48,259 bases of DNA. Origin: Desulfurococcales archaeon. GTDB taxonomy: Archaea; Thermoproteota; Thermoprotei_A; Sulfolobales; WANQ01. This document shows positions 33,446 through 40,995 of this stretch, piece after piece. Position numbers and translations under genes: made by a program. Location: assembly GCA_027030065.1 (NCBI GenBank), contig JALVFK010000269.1, positions 1 to 48,259 of the forward strand. The letters are read 5' to 3'. Position 1 is the stretch's first letter; every line of letters begins with the position of its first letter. Under the pieces are notes generated by a model. It was not told where the DNA came from, searched no databases, and saw only the letters and a list, made by a program, of their open reading frames with translations.

Positions 33446-33769
33446 TTGTATACTGAAGGCACTATTAGAGAGAGGATAATAAAGGTATTAATGGAGACTA
33501 GAGAACCCTTAGACGCCTATACTATAGCACTAGAAGTGGGATTAGACCCCAATACTAGTGAAAAAGAGGTTTACGAACATTTAACACACATTGCAAAAAC
33601 TATTAGGAGGCAGAGTAAGGGCAAACTCCTACTTTATATGATTCCCCCCCAGTGCCGTAATTGCGGTTACATCTTCAAAGACTTACGTAAACCCCGTAAA
33701 CCAAGCCGTTGTCCTCGATGCAAGAGCCAGCGCATTACACCTCCATTATTTAAGATTATGGAGGCTTAG
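33446..33769 (+). CDS. HTH domain fused to Zn-ribbon, predicted regulator
   Basis: N-terminal wHTH; CRNCGYIFKDLRKPRKPSRCPRCKSQRI. Confidence 0.85.
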   Translation: MYTEGTIRERIIKVLMETREPLDAYTIALEVGLDPNTSEKEVYEHLTHIAKTIRRQSKGKLLLYMIPPQCRNCGYIFKDLRKPRKPSRCPRCKSQRITPPLFKIMEA

Positions 33770-34406
33770 CTTGACTTAACAGTCTCAGAATCTCTTTTCT
33801 AAACAATTCATCGCTTTCGTATAGTTTAGTGTATATCTTGCCTAGAATACCATTTAAGAAAACAATCCTATCCTCCCCCATAGATACCGTGAGCCTTATA
33901 CTTCTAATACCATTGTCTACAACGTTGTAATTGCCTCTCAACACCTCCTTACCTAGAACTCTATCAAGAAGCATTGCAGAAGCTGTGAGTTCGCCTACAG
34001 TTCTCTCGTAGCGATCTAGTTTATCTCTCATCAAGGGAGAAAATCTTACTGGAACTATTAGATTAGACACATTATACCAGTACATTCGTTTAAATATTTT
34101 CAGACTATCACTCCTCAAGTCACGATAAATATCAACAATGTAACTAACAATACCCTCACAGTTCTCACTAGCATCAAGTACAATGTCCTCAGATTTCCTT
34201 TTTTCAATAACGTAGTTTGCTATAACCTTGCAAGGATAGACGAGTAATGAGACGTTTATAGGCATAACTTTTCGCACAAAATATGAGTCAATGCAGATTC
34301 TTCGGGTCTTGCCCCGAGCTTCAACAATACACTCCGTGTATGGCAAAATAATGCTTCTTTTAACCTCCATAATTATTTCGACCAGTAGAGTGTCCGTTTT
34401 CCACAA
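33756..34406 (-). CDS. Hypothetical protein (216 aa)
   Basis: ORF only; divergent from the ABC operon. Confidence 0.55.
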   Translation of the reverse strand: MWKTDTLLVEIIMEVKRSIILPYTECIVEARGKTRRICIDSYFVRKVMPINVSLLVYPCKVIANYVIEKRKSEDIVLDASENCEGIVSYIVDIYRDLRSDSLKIFKRMYWYNVSNLIVPVRFSPLMRDKLDRYERTVGELTASAMLLDRVLGKEVLRGNYNVVDNGIRSIRLTVSMGEDRIVFLNGILGKIYTKLYESDELFRKEILRLLSQAKPP

Positions 34407-34457: not shown

Positions 34458-36758
34458 ATGACTAGGAAGGGTTTATCCAAAACAGCTGGAATAGTAATAG
34501 CCGTAATCATCATAATAATTATAGCAATAGCAGCATACTATGCTACCCAAAAGCCTACAACAACTACAACAACACCAACAGTTAGTAGTCCTTCACCTAC
34601 ATCGACACCAACAACTACTTCAACACCAAGCCCAACAACAACCACTCAAACAACAACTAGCCCCACAACTACAACAACCAGCCCCTCACCTTCACCAACA
34701 ACAACTAGTTCCACGCCAACGACAACACCTAAGCCCGAGAAAGCATTCCACAAGAGAATGATCTATATTATAAACAATGACCCGGTACCAAGAATAAACA
34801 TGCTGCAATCGGGTACTGCTGATGCTGCTGCAATACCATTAGAAAACATACCAGATGTTGAAGGATATACTATGGGCAACTACAAGATTGTAGTAGAGAA
34901 AGGATTACTAGAGCCCTCAATCGTTTATGTTGTATTAAACTGTAACAAGGCCCCATTTAATAACACATTAGTGAGACAAGCATTAGCCTATGCAGTACCA
35001 TACGAGGTAATAATACAAACAGTTTATGAGGGCTACCTAAAACCATTACATGGAATCATACCATATGGATTCCTAGGATACACAACGTACAATATAATAA
35101 ACTATACTGCAATACCCTATGAGGAGAGACTGAACAAGGCCAAGGAACTATTACAGAAAGCCGGAATAGATCCAACTCAGTACACCTTTGAGATATGGTA
35201 TAATGCTGGTAACACCCAGAGAGAAAAAATAGCAACGCTACTATCAGAAAGCTGGGGTAGACTCGGATTCAAGACATCAACTAGATCACTAGAATGGCCA
35301 GTATATCTAAGCAAAGTTGAGAACGGAGAATTCGACGTATACATTATCGGGTGGGCACCAGACTACTTAGACCCAGATAACTATGTTGGACCACTATTCT
35401 ATGGAGGAACAAAGTTCAAGGAGGTAAACGTTGTTGAAGTACAATCACCGGGCGATGTAGGAAAGTATGTTAAGAATGCCGTAGTATTTGACACCGAGAA
35501 ATACTATGTAGTAGTAGGCGAGAAGGGAACTGGCGCAAGTGTGTCAGTAAGCGGTAAACCATTCATAGTTGTATCATACATAGTAGATGAGGACAAAACA
35601 AAGCCTATAGAAAACTCAACAGGCTTCGTTGATATAGATCCAGCATTCTATAGAAACACTACTGTAGATGCATTAGCGATTGCTGGAAGAAGAGAGGCTA
35701 ACCCGGAGATAAGAGAAGCAATATACAACGCATTATTCCAGGCATCAAATAGAGAAGTCCCCATAATACTATTAGGGCAATATGTACTAGTAAGACCATA
35801 TTGGAACTGGCTACACGGCAGATACTATCACCCAACACTAGCAGAAAGATACGATCTACTATGGGAGGATCCAGGCGCTCCAACAGTAAACACTGGTATC
35901 AAAGACTACGTAAACGATCCAAACACCTATGTTGTAGCAACAATAGGCTGGCCAGACACCTTCGATCCAGCATTCAACTACGAGACCTTTGGATGGGCTA
36001 TATTCCACAACATAGGTGATACACTAGTAACCTATTGGAAGGAGGAGACAAAAGAAGTCTCACCAGACCTAGCAGTCGCATGGGTACATAACAAGGACTC
36101 AACAGAATGGTATTTCGTTATAAGAGGAGGAGTAAAAGCCTACGACCCATGGCACAACAAGGTCTACAACATAACTGCGCTAGACATGCTATTCACTATA
36201 TGGAGGGTAGCTAGACTAGAAGGAGATCCCTCATGGATGGTCACGGAGTTCATAGACACCAATAACTCCAAAGTCTATACCGAAGAAGAGTTCGACCAAA
36301 TATTAAAGAATAACGAACTAATAGCAGAATACAAGGGACAGTCAAAAGTAGTTAAATCATTAGACGAGCTACTAGACTTCTTCGGCTACAAGGGCAAGAC
36401 AGCAGGAGTACTGTACATCAAACTATACTATCCATACGGACCAATACTAAGCATATTAGCTGATCCATTCTTAATGGTTATACCAGCACAATACCTATTC
36501 GACAATGTAGATCAGTTGAAGGGTAAATACGAGGAAGCCATGAATGCTGCAGAATGGGGTAAGAATCCATCAGCATGGGCAAAGTACATCGGTAAGGGTG
36601 AGCAAGAACCAACACACCAATATCTACACAAATTCCCAGTAGGCACCGGGCCATACTATGTCAAGGAATACGTTGAGGGAAGCCACATAGTATTAGAATA
36701 CAACCCATACTACTGGAATACAACTCTATGGGAGAACCTCTACGGATTCAAACCTTAA
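34458..36758 (+). CDS. Family-5 (SBP_bac_5) peptide-binding protein of ABC transporter; domain order appears circularly permuted; N-terminal TM and STP linker
   Basis: TM (AGIVIAVIIIIIIAIAAYY), Thr/Ser/Pro linker, then the canonical C-half (PFNNTLVRQALAYAVPYEVIIQTVYEGYLKP; DYLDPDNYV), then the canonical N-half (PDTFDPAFNYETFGWAIFHNIGDTLVTY; VGTGPYYVKEYVEGSHIVLEYNPYYW). Confidence 0.9.
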   Translation: MTRKGLSKTAGIVIAVIIIIIIAIAAYYATQKPTTTTTTPTVSSPSPTSTPTTTSTPSPTTTTQTTTSPTTTTTSPSPSPTTTSSTPTTTPKPEKAFHKRMIYIINNDPVPRINMLQSGTADAAAIPLENIPDVEGYTMGNYKIVVEKGLLEPSIVYVVLNCNKAPFNNTLVRQALAYAVPYEVIIQTVYEGYLKPLHGIIPYGFLGYTTYNIINYTAIPYEERLNKAKELLQKAGIDPTQYTFEIWYNAGNTQREKIATLLSESWGRLGFKTSTRSLEWPVYLSKVENGEFDVYIIGWAPDYLDPDNYVGPLFYGGTKFKEVNVVEVQSPGDVGKYVKNAVVFDTEKYYVVVGEKGTGASVSVSGKPFIVVSYIVDEDKTKPIENSTGFVDIDPAFYRNTTVDALAIAGRREANPEIREAIYNALFQASNREVPIILLGQYVLVRPYWNWLHGRYYHPTLAERYDLLWEDPGAPTVNTGIKDYVNDPNTYVVATIGWPDTFDPAFNYETFGWAIFHNIGDTLVTYWKEETKEVSPDLAVAWVHNKDSTEWYFVIRGGVKAYDPWHNKVYNITALDMLFTIWRVARLEGDPSWMVTEFIDTNNSKVYTEEEFDQILKNNELIAEYKGQSKVVKSLDELLDFFGYKGKTAGVLYIKLYYPYGPILSILADPFLMVIPAQYLFDNVDQLKGKYEEAMNAAEWGKNPSAWAKYIGKGEQEPTHQYLHKFPVGTGPYYVKEYVEGSHIVLEYNPYYWNTTLWENLYGFKP
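34554..34733 (+). repeat. Low-complexity ACA/CCA-rich tract encoding the Thr/Ser/Pro linker
   Basis: PTTTTTTPTVSSPSPTSTPTTTSTPSPTTTTQTTTSPTTTTTSPSPSPTTTSSTPTTTP. Confidence 0.9.
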
Positions 36759-36853: not shown

Positions 36854-37894
36854 GTGGCAGAGCTAAAGAGGTTCCTTATAAGGAGGCTTGTCACGTTTAT
36901 TCCAACACTCATAGGTGTTACTCTTCTTGTATTCATTATAGCTAACTTAATCCCAGCAGACCCGGCTAGAGCCTGGGCTGGTGGAGAAAAAGCTAGTCCC
37001 GAAGTGATTGAAAGGATTAGAGAGGAGTATCATTTAAATGATCCATGGTATGTACAATATGTTTTCCTAATGAAAAAATTGTTTACCAACGATATAGTTA
37101 GTCCTAGAACTCATAACAAGATATGGGATGACCTTATCTTCGGTACTAGTCAAGGCGTTGCAGGTGCTGGTACAAAGTACGGTAGATTCTTCATAACACT
37201 GCAACTAACTCTCTTTGCTTTCTTGTATATAGTCTTCATAGGTATACCTTTAGGAATACTCTCGGCTCTAAAGAAGGATTCTCTATTGGACAGTACTGTG
37301 AGAACTCTTGCACTCGTAGGTGTTTCGACACCAGTATTCTGGTTAGGATACTTGTTAATCTATATATTCTTTGTAAGATTCCGTGTAATAGAGCTAGCAG
37401 GGTTCCCCGAGCCTACACAACGTATAACTGGCATCATGGTAATAGATGCACTCCTACTTGGAGAAAACGATATAGCTATACAAATAATTAATAGACTCGC
37501 ACTACCTGCATTTGTACTTGGCTTCATTGGAATAGGGGTTATAGCTAGAATTACACGAAACTCTTTCCTAGAAACATGGAATGCCGACTATATAGAATTC
37601 GGTAAAGCCCGAGGACTACGGAAGTCTAGGCTGATGAGACATGCATTAAAGAATGCTTTGGTTCCTATAGTAACCGTTCTAGGCTTACAGTTTGGAGGAC
37701 TTTTAGGTGGGGCACCAATCACTGAAACCGTTTTCGGCATACCGGGTATGGGACGCTACATGGTGGAAGCCATCCGTAATTTCGATTACCCCGCCTTAAT
37801 AGGTGGTGTACTATTATTCGCTTTAATATACATGCTAGCTAACTTGATCGTCGATATAGCATATGCCTTCATAGATCCAAGAGTAAGATACTAG
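36854..37894 (+). CDS. Peptide ABC transporter permease (DppB-like)
   Basis: RRLVTFIPTLIGVTLLVFIIANLIPADPA; EAA-like region ARGLRKSRLMRHALKNALVPIVTVLGLQFGGLLGGA; GTG start. Confidence 0.92.
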   Translation: MAELKRFLIRRLVTFIPTLIGVTLLVFIIANLIPADPARAWAGGEKASPEVIERIREEYHLNDPWYVQYVFLMKKLFTNDIVSPRTHNKIWDDLIFGTSQGVAGAGTKYGRFFITLQLTLFAFLYIVFIGIPLGILSALKKDSLLDSTVRTLALVGVSTPVFWLGYLLIYIFFVRFRVIELAGFPEPTQRITGIMVIDALLLGENDIAIQIINRLALPAFVLGFIGIGVIARITRNSFLETWNADYIEFGKARGLRKSRLMRHALKNALVPIVTVLGLQFGGLLGGAPITETVFGIPGMGRYMVEAIRNFDYPALIGGVLLFALIYMLANLIVDIAYAFIDPRVRY

Positions 37895-37905
37895 GAGGAT
37901 TAACT

Positions 37906-39027
37906 ATGAGTGCAGAAGAAGTCTACGAGAAGAAACTATTGGATCATTTAAGCGACTTCTTCATAAAAGCAGTAGTTAGGATTATGGACTCGATAAAACC
38001 TGGATGGAGTATTAGAAACAAGTCAAGAATAGATGAATGGAGGCTAATGCTCTACGCGTTAAATAGATCGCCTACTGGTATAGTTGGCTTAATACTTGTA
38101 GCATCATTTATAATAATAGGTATTTTTGGCCCCCTTGTCGCTCCCTATAGCTATAGTGATCTACTAGTATTCAAGAACAGTCACTATAGGTTCATACCTC
38201 CTGGAGGAACAGGGCCTGGCGGAGAAGTCTTCTTACTTGGAACCGATGATTATGGAAGAGATATGTTGTCTCTAATATTATATGGTGCTAGGACTTCCCT
38301 AGTCGTTGCACTACTTGTAATGATCTTTGGCGCCCCCATAGGAATAATATTGGGACTCATATCAGGGTACTATGGCGGTAAAATAGATGAACTAATTATG
38401 AGGATCACTGATATATTCTTAGCGTTCCCAGGACTAATACTTGCCATAGCTTTCGCCGCCACGTTACCCGATAGGGTAAGAGGGCTTTTAGAAGCTAATC
38501 CATGGCTACAGAATATCATGTTATCATTGTTCGCGTTGGATCCAGCTGATGCCCCTAGGCTCGCTAACTTGTTATCGGTTATTGTTGCAATAGTTATAGT
38601 ATGGTGGCCTGGCTATACGAGAATAGTTAGAGGTAGCACTCTTTCAGCCAGAGAAAACGTTTATGTTGAAGCAGCTCGAGCTATGGGTATGAGTTCCTGG
38701 GGAATAATGTTTAAGCATATCTTCCCCAATATACTAGCACCAATACTCGTAATACTCACACTCGATGTTGGCTCAGTAATACTAGTTGAAGCTGGCTTAA
38801 GCTATCTAGGCATAGGTGCTCAGCCACCAATCGCGGATTGGGGACGAATAGTCTACGATGGCTCTAGATGGCTTATAAGGGGATACTGGTGGCTCAGCCT
38901 CCTTCCAGGCGTTTTCATACTGCTAACAGTATTGGGATTCAACTTACTAGGCGACGCCTTAAGAGACGTATTAGATCCCAAGGCTAGGAGGAGTATTGAG
39001 TTTAAGTTAAAGAAAAAGAAGAGGTAG
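37906..39027 (+). CDS. Peptide ABC transporter permease (DppC-like)
   Basis: LLGTDDYGRDMLSLILYGARTSL; EAARAMGMSSWGIMFKHIFPNILAPILV. Confidence 0.92.
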   Translation: MSAEEVYEKKLLDHLSDFFIKAVVRIMDSIKPGWSIRNKSRIDEWRLMLYALNRSPTGIVGLILVASFIIIGIFGPLVAPYSYSDLLVFKNSHYRFIPPGGTGPGGEVFLLGTDDYGRDMLSLILYGARTSLVVALLVMIFGAPIGIILGLISGYYGGKIDELIMRITDIFLAFPGLILAIAFAATLPDRVRGLLEANPWLQNIMLSLFALDPADAPRLANLLSVIVAIVIVWWPGYTRIVRGSTLSARENVYVEAARAMGMSSWGIMFKHIFPNILAPILVILTLDVGSVILVEAGLSYLGIGAQPPIADWGRIVYDGSRWLIRGYWWLSLLPGVFILLTVLGFNLLGDALRDVLDPKARRSIEFKLKKKKR

Positions 39028-39033
39028 ATAGCA

Positions 39034-40023
39034 GTGGAGATGTGTAAGCCTATACTCGAAGTAAGAGATCTATACGTTAACTTCTATACTTATGCAGGTA
39101 TAGTTAAAGCGATAGACGGTGTAAGCTTTACGGTATGTGAGGGAGAAACGTTCTGCCTTGTAGGTGAGACTGGATGCGGTAAAACTGTTACTTCACGAGC
39201 AATAACTAGATTAGTACCAGAGCCCGGTAGGATAGAGAAAGGCGAAGTAATCTACTATACACCTTACGGTAAGATAAACTTACTAGAACTCCCCGAGGAA
39301 AAACTTAGAGAAATTAGAGGAAAAGAAATAGCATACATATTCCAGGACCCTGCTGCAGCCCTAGACCCTTTATACACTATTGGTTATCAGATAGCCGAGA
39401 CCATGGTTGAACATAAAACAGTATCCAAGTGGAAGGAAGCATTCATAAAAGCCGTAGAAGTGCTCAGGAGCGTACTCATGCCTGATCCGGAGAAGAGAGT
39501 AAAAGCTTATCCACATGAACTTAGCGGCGGTATGAAACAGCGTAGCGTGATAGGTATAGGGTTAAGTAATCAGCCACGTATAATTATTGCAGACGAACCC
39601 ACATCATATCTCGACGTAACTATACAAGCTCAGATAATGGACTTGTTACGTAAGCTTAAGAAGGAAAGGAAGCTAACAATTATCCTCATAACACACAATA
39701 TGGGCCTCGTGGCAGAAATGTGCGATAGAGTAGCCGTAATGTATGCTGGAAACATTGTAGAACTGGGGACGGTAGAACAAGTATTTAAGAACCCATTACA
39801 TCCCTATACTAAGGGCCTCCTAAGAGCAGTACCCAATCCCCTAACAAAGATAGAAAAACTTGAAGCGATTCCTGGCACAGTACCCAACCTAATATATCCT
39901 CCACCAGGGTGCAGGTTCCATCCAAGATGTAGTTATACCATGGATATCTGTAAACGTGAGAAGCCTAGATTAGTAGAAGTAGAGCCAGGACACCACGTTG
40001 CATGTTGGCTTTATTCGAGGTGA
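39034..40023 (+). CDS. Peptide ABC transporter ATPase (DppD-like)
   Basis: GETGCGKT, LSGGMKQR, IIADEPTSYLDV; C-terminal [11 protein letters not shown]. Confidence 0.93.
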   Translation: MEMCKPILEVRDLYVNFYTYAGIVKAIDGVSFTVCEGETFCLVGETGCGKTVTSRAITRLVPEPGRIEKGEVIYYTPYGKINLLELPEEKLREIRGKEIAYIFQDPAAALDPLYTIGYQIAETMVEHKTVSKWKEAFIKAVEVLRSVLMPDPEKRVKAYPHELSGGMKQRSVIGIGLSNQPRIIIADEPTSYLDVTIQAQIMDLLRKLKKERKLTIILITHNMGLVAEMCDRVAVMYAGNIVELGTVEQVFKNPLHPYTKGLLRAVPNPLTKIEKLEAIPGTVPNLIYPPPGCRFHPRCSYTMDICKREKPRLVEVEPGHHVACWLYSR

Positions 40024-40026
40024 CAT

Positions 40027-40995
40027 ATGGTGAGTGAAACACTTGTACGAGTAGAGAATCTGAAGAAGTATTTCCCTATAAAGGGCCTGTTATTCACAAA
40101 GGCTTATGTGAGAGCTGTCGATGGTATAAGTTTTGAGATACGTAAAGGTGAAACCCTAGGCTTAGTTGGAGAGAGTGGTTGTGGTAAGACAACAACTGGC
40201 AGATTATTGCTCAGATTAATAGAGCCTACAAGCGGCAAGATAATCTTCGAGAACAGAGACATATCAAAGCTGAAGGGTAAGGCGCTAAAGGAGTTTAGGA
40301 GAGAAGCACAAATGGTGTTTCAGGATCCTTATACTAGCCTGGATCCCCGTATGACTGTCTTTGATATAATAATGGAGCCTCTCAGAATACATCATATAAA
40401 GGTGCCTGATCCGGAAAAATTCGTTATAGATCTATTATATAAGGTCGGATTAAATGAAACACACATCTATAGATATCCTCATGAGTTTTCTGGAGGGCAG
40501 AGGCAGAGGATAGCCATAGCGCGTGTTCTAGCATTAAGGCCTAAATTCATTGTACTAGATGAACCTACTTCTGCTCTAGACGTATCGGTGCAGGCCCAGA
40601 TATTAAACCTATTAAAAGAATTACAAAAAGAATACAATCTAACCTACCTATTCATTAGCCACGACCTAGGAGTAGTCAAGTATATGAGTGATAGAGTTGC
40701 CGTAATGTATCTTGGAAAAATAGTTGAACTAGCACCAGCCGAAGAACTATTTGAAAAACCATTACACCCGTATACTCAAATGCTCTTAGCAGCACTTCCA
40801 ATACCAGATCCCGAATACCATAAGAAGAAGCCGAGGACAAAGATTCTAGGAGAGCCTGGGAGCCCTATTAACCCTCCACCAGGGTGCAGGTTCCATCCAA
40901 GATGTCCTATAGTAAAGGATAAGTGTAGGAGAGAGGAACCTCCACTCGTTGAGGTTGAGCGGGATCACTGGGTTGCTTGCTGGCATTATGGTTGA
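40027..40995 (+). CDS. Peptide ABC transporter ATPase (DppF-like)
   Basis: [28 protein letters not shown]-terminal [11 protein letters not shown]. Confidence 0.93.

Follow-up and report, generated by a model that had tools for sequence, protein, structure and literature searches.

A circularly permuted family-5 substrate-binding protein in an archaeal Opp/Dpp-type operon, with several chain openings among its orthologues

Organization of the locus

The window analysed here is a stretch of 48,259 nucleotides from a Desulfurococcales archaeon (GenBank assembly GCA_027030065.1, contig JALVFK010000269.1, positions 1 to 48,259). It contains a complete Opp/Dpp operon, comprising one binding protein, two permeases and two oligo_HPY ATPases; the arrangement of two permeases and two ATPases after the binding-protein gene had been proposed in the original prediction, and the Pfam domains agree with it. 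The binding protein (766 amino acids) is read from a single unbroken open reading frame. Throughout, N, M and C denote the three parts of a canonical family-5 protein, which in the window protein stand in the order M-C-N, behind a membrane anchor and a linker. The features are as follows.

33756–34406, reverse strand: divergent uncharacterised neighbour gene, beside both M-C-N and C-N-M genes in relatives (comparison of relatives' loci)
34458–36758, forward strand: family-5 substrate-binding protein, circularly permuted, 766 amino acids, order M-C-N (open reading frame, Pfam and PDB matches)
34482–34541, forward strand: N-terminal transmembrane anchor, residues ~9–28, TAGIVIAVIIIIIIAIAAYY (read directly from the sequence)
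34548–34736, forward strand: linker rich in Thr, Ser and Pro, residues ~31–93 (read directly from the sequence)
34752–35411, forward strand: segment M, PF00496 profile positions 149–365, whose canonical place is the middle and later part (profile matches)
35361–35363, forward strand: codon of Asp302, aligned with Asp408 of mature DppA and invariant in the M-C-N alignment (alignment to DppA)
35412–35654, forward strand: family insertion separating M from C, residues ~319–399, the opening site of C-N-M proteins (boundaries approximate)
35655–35864, forward strand: segment C, the canonical C-terminal end, VDALAIAGRREANPEIREAIY...WLHGRYYHPTLAERYDLLW (segment models and DppA alignment; boundaries approximate)
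35865–35924, forward strand: joint of the old C-terminus to the old N-terminus, EDPGAPTVNTGIKDYVNDPN, homologous across the permuted orders of the family (alignments)
35925–36716, forward strand: segment N, PF00496 profile positions 1–142, the canonical N-terminal half (profile matches)
36717–36755, forward strand: conserved new C-terminal tail, NTTLWENLYGFKP (alignment of M-C-N relatives)
36854–37894, forward strand: permease of DppB/OppB type (BPD_transp_1; Pfam)
37906–39027, forward strand: permease of DppC/OppC type (BPD_transp_1, OppC_N; Pfam)
39034–40023, forward strand: ATPase of DppD/OppD type (ABC_tran, oligo_HPY; Pfam)
40027–40995, forward strand: ATPase of DppF/OppF type (ABC_tran, oligo_HPY; Pfam)

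The segment starts given in the original prediction proved correct to within a few bases, but its end of the gene, placed just after the motif YYW, did not: the protein continues for 13 residues, through the tail NTTLWENLYGFKP, which nearly all M-C-N relatives keep. Relatives of the binding-protein gene usually stand next to an Opp/Dpp permease gene that belongs to their own lineage, and homologues of the reverse-strand gene at 33756–34406 lie upstream of binding-protein genes of both M-C-N and C-N-M order. That gene is without a Pfam match and is found divergently beside these binding-protein genes in many Thermoprotei.

Rotation relative to canonical family-5 proteins

In a Pfam-A scan, the window protein matched PF00496 (SBP_bac_5) with a total of 200 bits over two stretches (cut-off 32.4), with residues 99–318 corresponding to profile positions 149–365 of 368 and no PF00496 coverage of the family insertion (residues ~319–399); the C-terminal block, scanned alone, corresponded to profile positions 1–141 (E = 3.9e-14). 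A whole-genome search returned profile positions 148–365 (E = 5e-45) followed by 1–142 (E = 2e-13). Both halves of the profile are thus matched, but not in collinear order: two partial matches with swapped profile coordinates, as the original prediction had anticipated, were recovered, and no collinear full-length SBP_bac_5 match to the window protein was found. Comparison with DppA (PDB 5f1q), in which the middle piece is strong and the short outer pieces are weak one by one, aligned window residues 490–581, 720–755, 100–315 and 409–468 with DppA residues 30–122, 200–235, 241–449 and 473–532, in DppA chain order, that is, as a clean rotation at the level of sequence. The swapped profile stretches and the rotated pieces bear out the earlier claim of a complete circular permutation within one open reading frame and, judged from these alignments, the window protein is an SBP_bac_5 homologue that is a circular permutant and not an ordinary member. 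No segment of the DppA/OppA fold is missing from it, and it also has in common with these proteins the operon partners, an equivalent of Asp408 and matches at the level of predicted structure; what sets it apart is its rotation, its joined old ends, the insertion between M and C, and the new position of its archaeal anchor and linker.

Distribution and assembly

The family was searched in 59 relatives, then in 229 genomes of the class and then in 85,000 GTDB species, with bacteria covered by the GTDB motif scan alone, using two motifs that are both specific to this permuted family. Of the 229 class genomes, 65 carry it, and the GTDB scan returned 57 loci; hosts include Desulfurococcales, Pyrodictiaceae, Acidilobaceae, Thermofilum, Pyrobaculum, Thermococcus and Archaeoglobus, as well as bins that bear Asgard and Thermoplasmata labels. 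The assembly of the window genome is in 272 contigs, a fragmentation that would suit an artefact of assembly or binning that exchanged two halves of an ordinary gene. However, M-C-N, the order for which a search of archaeal genomes had been proposed, recurs in dozens of independent assemblies, among them G030 (L014), whose genome is a single contig; this rules out misassembly as the source of the window's order. C-N-M is present in the single-contig genomes G021, G027 and G038. The signal anchor, the linker, the conserved ends (with the LYGYKP stop) and the intact reading frame also fit a real gene, and the orders are spread through the tree by descent; the chance that an artefact explains the arrangement is negligible.

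Several openings of one circle

Segment models for C, N and M, derived from the first 15 proteins and applied to every open reading frame retrieved, resolved four orders among orthologues: M-C-N, C-N-M, M(138-240)-C-N-M(1-135) (carried by L094 and L097) and M(40-239)-C-N-M(1-40) (carried by L087). After copies more than 95% identical were dropped, these comprised 23 M-C-N proteins, 35 C-N-M proteins (6 of which form the divergent group L137–L142), and 2 and 1 proteins with the cut inside M, the last two orders being known from three metagenome-assembled genomes. The window protein and its orthologues in other heat-loving archaea open a single circle at four or more points, a variability that goes beyond the single-sequence view of the original prediction.

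The joint from C to N is homologous in all four orders (for example, ...RYDLLWEDKNAPSVDLGLGGYKNDPSTYVIVTIGWPDTFDP in L017). When the ends of the window protein are joined (...ENLYGFKP + KAFHKRMIYI), they resemble the N-M joint of the C-N-M protein L053 (...KELYGTDVPKHKTVIYL), so little sequence was lost. The exact opening of C-N-M proteins varies within the M–C insertion (after SEAQQVFSG in L016, before SEAVQYISSHL in L091 and after WLILVGE in L137), which suggests either separate events or sliding ends. Despite its permutation, L053 yields one collinear PF00496 match, so this order is hidden from routine annotation.

Order changes in place

Natural circular permutation is usually regarded as something that happens rarely and once, and that is deduced by comparing distant relatives; its textbook model is tandem duplication followed by fusion and trimming. 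To place the orders on trees, all rows were rotated to a common frame; the outgroups are distant and branches near the root are long. Relative to the canonical rows used, the permuted family forms one clade (SH-aLRT 97), within which a carefully built tree of 48 permuted proteins requires at least 6 changes of the order labels. A tree from the M block alone and one from the C-N block alone each require the same 6 changes, so mosaic recombination is not needed to explain them. With groups named from architecture and not from the tree, approximately unbiased (AU) tests rejected a one-clade constraint both for C-N-M (P = 9e-71) and for M-C-N (P = 2.5e-4). The adjacent permease, which served as an independent marker for the binding-protein tree, likewise keeps the C-N-M groups separate; its tree puts the window next to one such group and places L077 within a different one. 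L077, an M-C-N gene of the Thermococci known from one contig, has upstream and downstream genes in common with the C-N-M genes L080, L081 and L083; its M block shares 85% identity with that of L081, and its C-N block 83% with that of L083. Order has changed in place at these syntenic loci. A search of the flanks for remnants of duplicated copies found none.

Some genomes carry two or three copies (for example, G096 and G182), and these, together with the long branches near the root, could reflect old paralogues that were each permuted once and later inherited or transferred, as opposed to orthologues re-cut in place. Against such paralogy, neither main order forms one clade, the adjacent permease and the divergent neighbour gene accompany both orders, and L077 occupies the same locus as its C-N-M sisters; we consider it unlikely. 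We lean, with some reserve, towards one early fusion of the ends that closed the circle, followed by repeated in-place reopening at at least five loops in archaea of several phyla.

The family is notable mainly for this repeated re-cutting of orthologues. Permutation that recurs among orthologues of one operon, once at 83–85% identity, makes both mechanism and consequence testable on close pairs, and for transport biology the family offers a ready-made series in which the position of the tether varies while fold and partner remain constant. If early fusion and reopening is the true history, it amounts to a natural, replicated experiment on where a membrane tether can attach to an ABC binding protein.

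Predicted structure and function

AlphaFold, proposed for the window protein in the original prediction, returned confident predicted folds for both natural orders: mean pLDDT 86.4 and pTM 0.82 for the window protein (M-C-N), and pLDDT 86.5 and pTM 0.83 for L053 (C-N-M). Foldseek matched these models to DppA/OppA-type structures over ~366 and ~522 columns, respectively; it requires sequential order, and in each model the aligned columns are about as many as the block left unbroken. Neither these matches nor the AlphaFold models prove a superposition of the permuted parts into a single domain. In the 5f1q alignment, Asp302 of the window protein aligns without gaps with Asp408 of mature DppA, the ligand of the peptide alpha-ammonium group in that protein, and it is invariant among the aligned M-C-N relatives. 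Because of this match and this invariance, our best guess is that the ligand would be a peptide or another amine-bearing compound.

By DppA/OppA numbering, the window protein would be cut in domain I (approximately mature DppA 208–213) and C-N-M proteins in domain III (approximately 421–445); published limits of the OppA domains did not turn up in a text search. An earlier idea, that the cuts fall at the two inter-lobe hinge strands and so swap whole lobes, was dropped because DppA/OppA numbering places them in domains I and III. Both inter-lobe crossings should be kept in M-C-N and C-N-M, and with them the flytrap motion.

Binding proteins are in general known to be reused, and a permuted protein could have left transport and act as a sensor or a structural surface protein. 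However, the gene usually adjoins an Opp/Dpp permease gene of its own lineage, the window holds the full operon and the ligand aspartate is conserved, and such a role is very unlikely. The protein is, with high probability, a tethered Venus-flytrap importer protein whose fold and operon have been kept while its termini were relocated repeatedly within the lineage. It would serve a peptide/oligopeptide-type (Opp/Dpp) ABC importer by binding substrate outside the cell, held at the membrane by the N-terminal anchor and the long Thr/Ser/Pro linker. With its old C- and N-termini fused and a new opening elsewhere in the chain, it would still form a normal two-lobed Venus flytrap that closes on its ligand and passes it to the two permeases, the two ATPases supplying power. 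The closed circle has been reopened several times at different loops, in place and in the same operon, presumably by duplication with trimming. The permutation plausibly repositions the tether, which would attach at domain I in M-C-N proteins such as that of the window and at domain III in C-N-M proteins, with the fold and the transporter partner unchanged.

Comparison with known systems

Text searches, in incomplete coverage of the literature, turned up no account of permutation in a family-5 binding protein; one paper that they suggested merely lists the SBP_bac_5 domain and cites permutation elsewhere. The closest parallel is TpMglB-2 (Tp0684), described in the available text of PMC4990184 as a circularly permuted sugar-binding protein of 'type Ic', which is likewise a naturally occurring circular permutant among ABC binding proteins, has relatives that are found in tethered settings, and for which tethering was raised as a reason for permutation. 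As presented there, TpMglB-2 belongs to the type I, MglB-like class and has one permuted topology, whereas the window family has several openings among orthologues, and the best sequence and structure matches of the window protein are to family 5 and not to the type I MglB-like fold. More than one circular permutation of a single fold is on record for the cpRAS and YRG/YlqF GTPases (PMC2430557); these are unrelated proteins, and the portion of that account available does not report in-place change within one orthologous operon.

Other permuted or related family-5 proteins

The window genome encodes a second, divergent permuted family-5 protein, L039 (940 amino acids; contig C86:22395-25214), with an N-terminal signal peptide and, at its C-terminus, an Ig-like domain and a membrane anchor. 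In Pfam matches M comes first, and a weak N match follows it in L039 and in L162; profile–profile comparison maps parts of L039 to canonical positions 282–497 (M), 492–577 (C) and 92–305 (N), the C and N matches having modest probability (86–88%) but falling exactly where expected. The L039/L157 family thus also looks to be M-C-N, as in the window family, although its sequence is divergent. L039 relatives occur in 180 of 300 Thermoproteota genomes and are far more widespread than the window family.

A third group, less secure because of its long branches, comprises L201, which is C-N-M, and L202–L205, in which an Ig-like domain is followed by M from approximately position 60 onward, then by C and N, and last by the initial 60 positions of M. 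L201–L205 fall in one clade with the canonical-order L040–L044 (support 97/93). Because canonical, C-N-M and cut-in-M orders are intermixed in this clade, the canonical N-M-C order may have been regained within it. In L040–L044, large PKD-like domains separate the linker from the binding domain, and the ends of these proteins, when joined, resemble the joint of the permuted family. In L199 (G389 contig C11), a glycoside-hydrolase-like sequence, AREAARKSVVLLENRGILPL, precedes the binding-protein gene in the same frame, with a masked stretch between the two; it resembles family 3 beta-glucosidases, and sugars may be substrates in this lineage.
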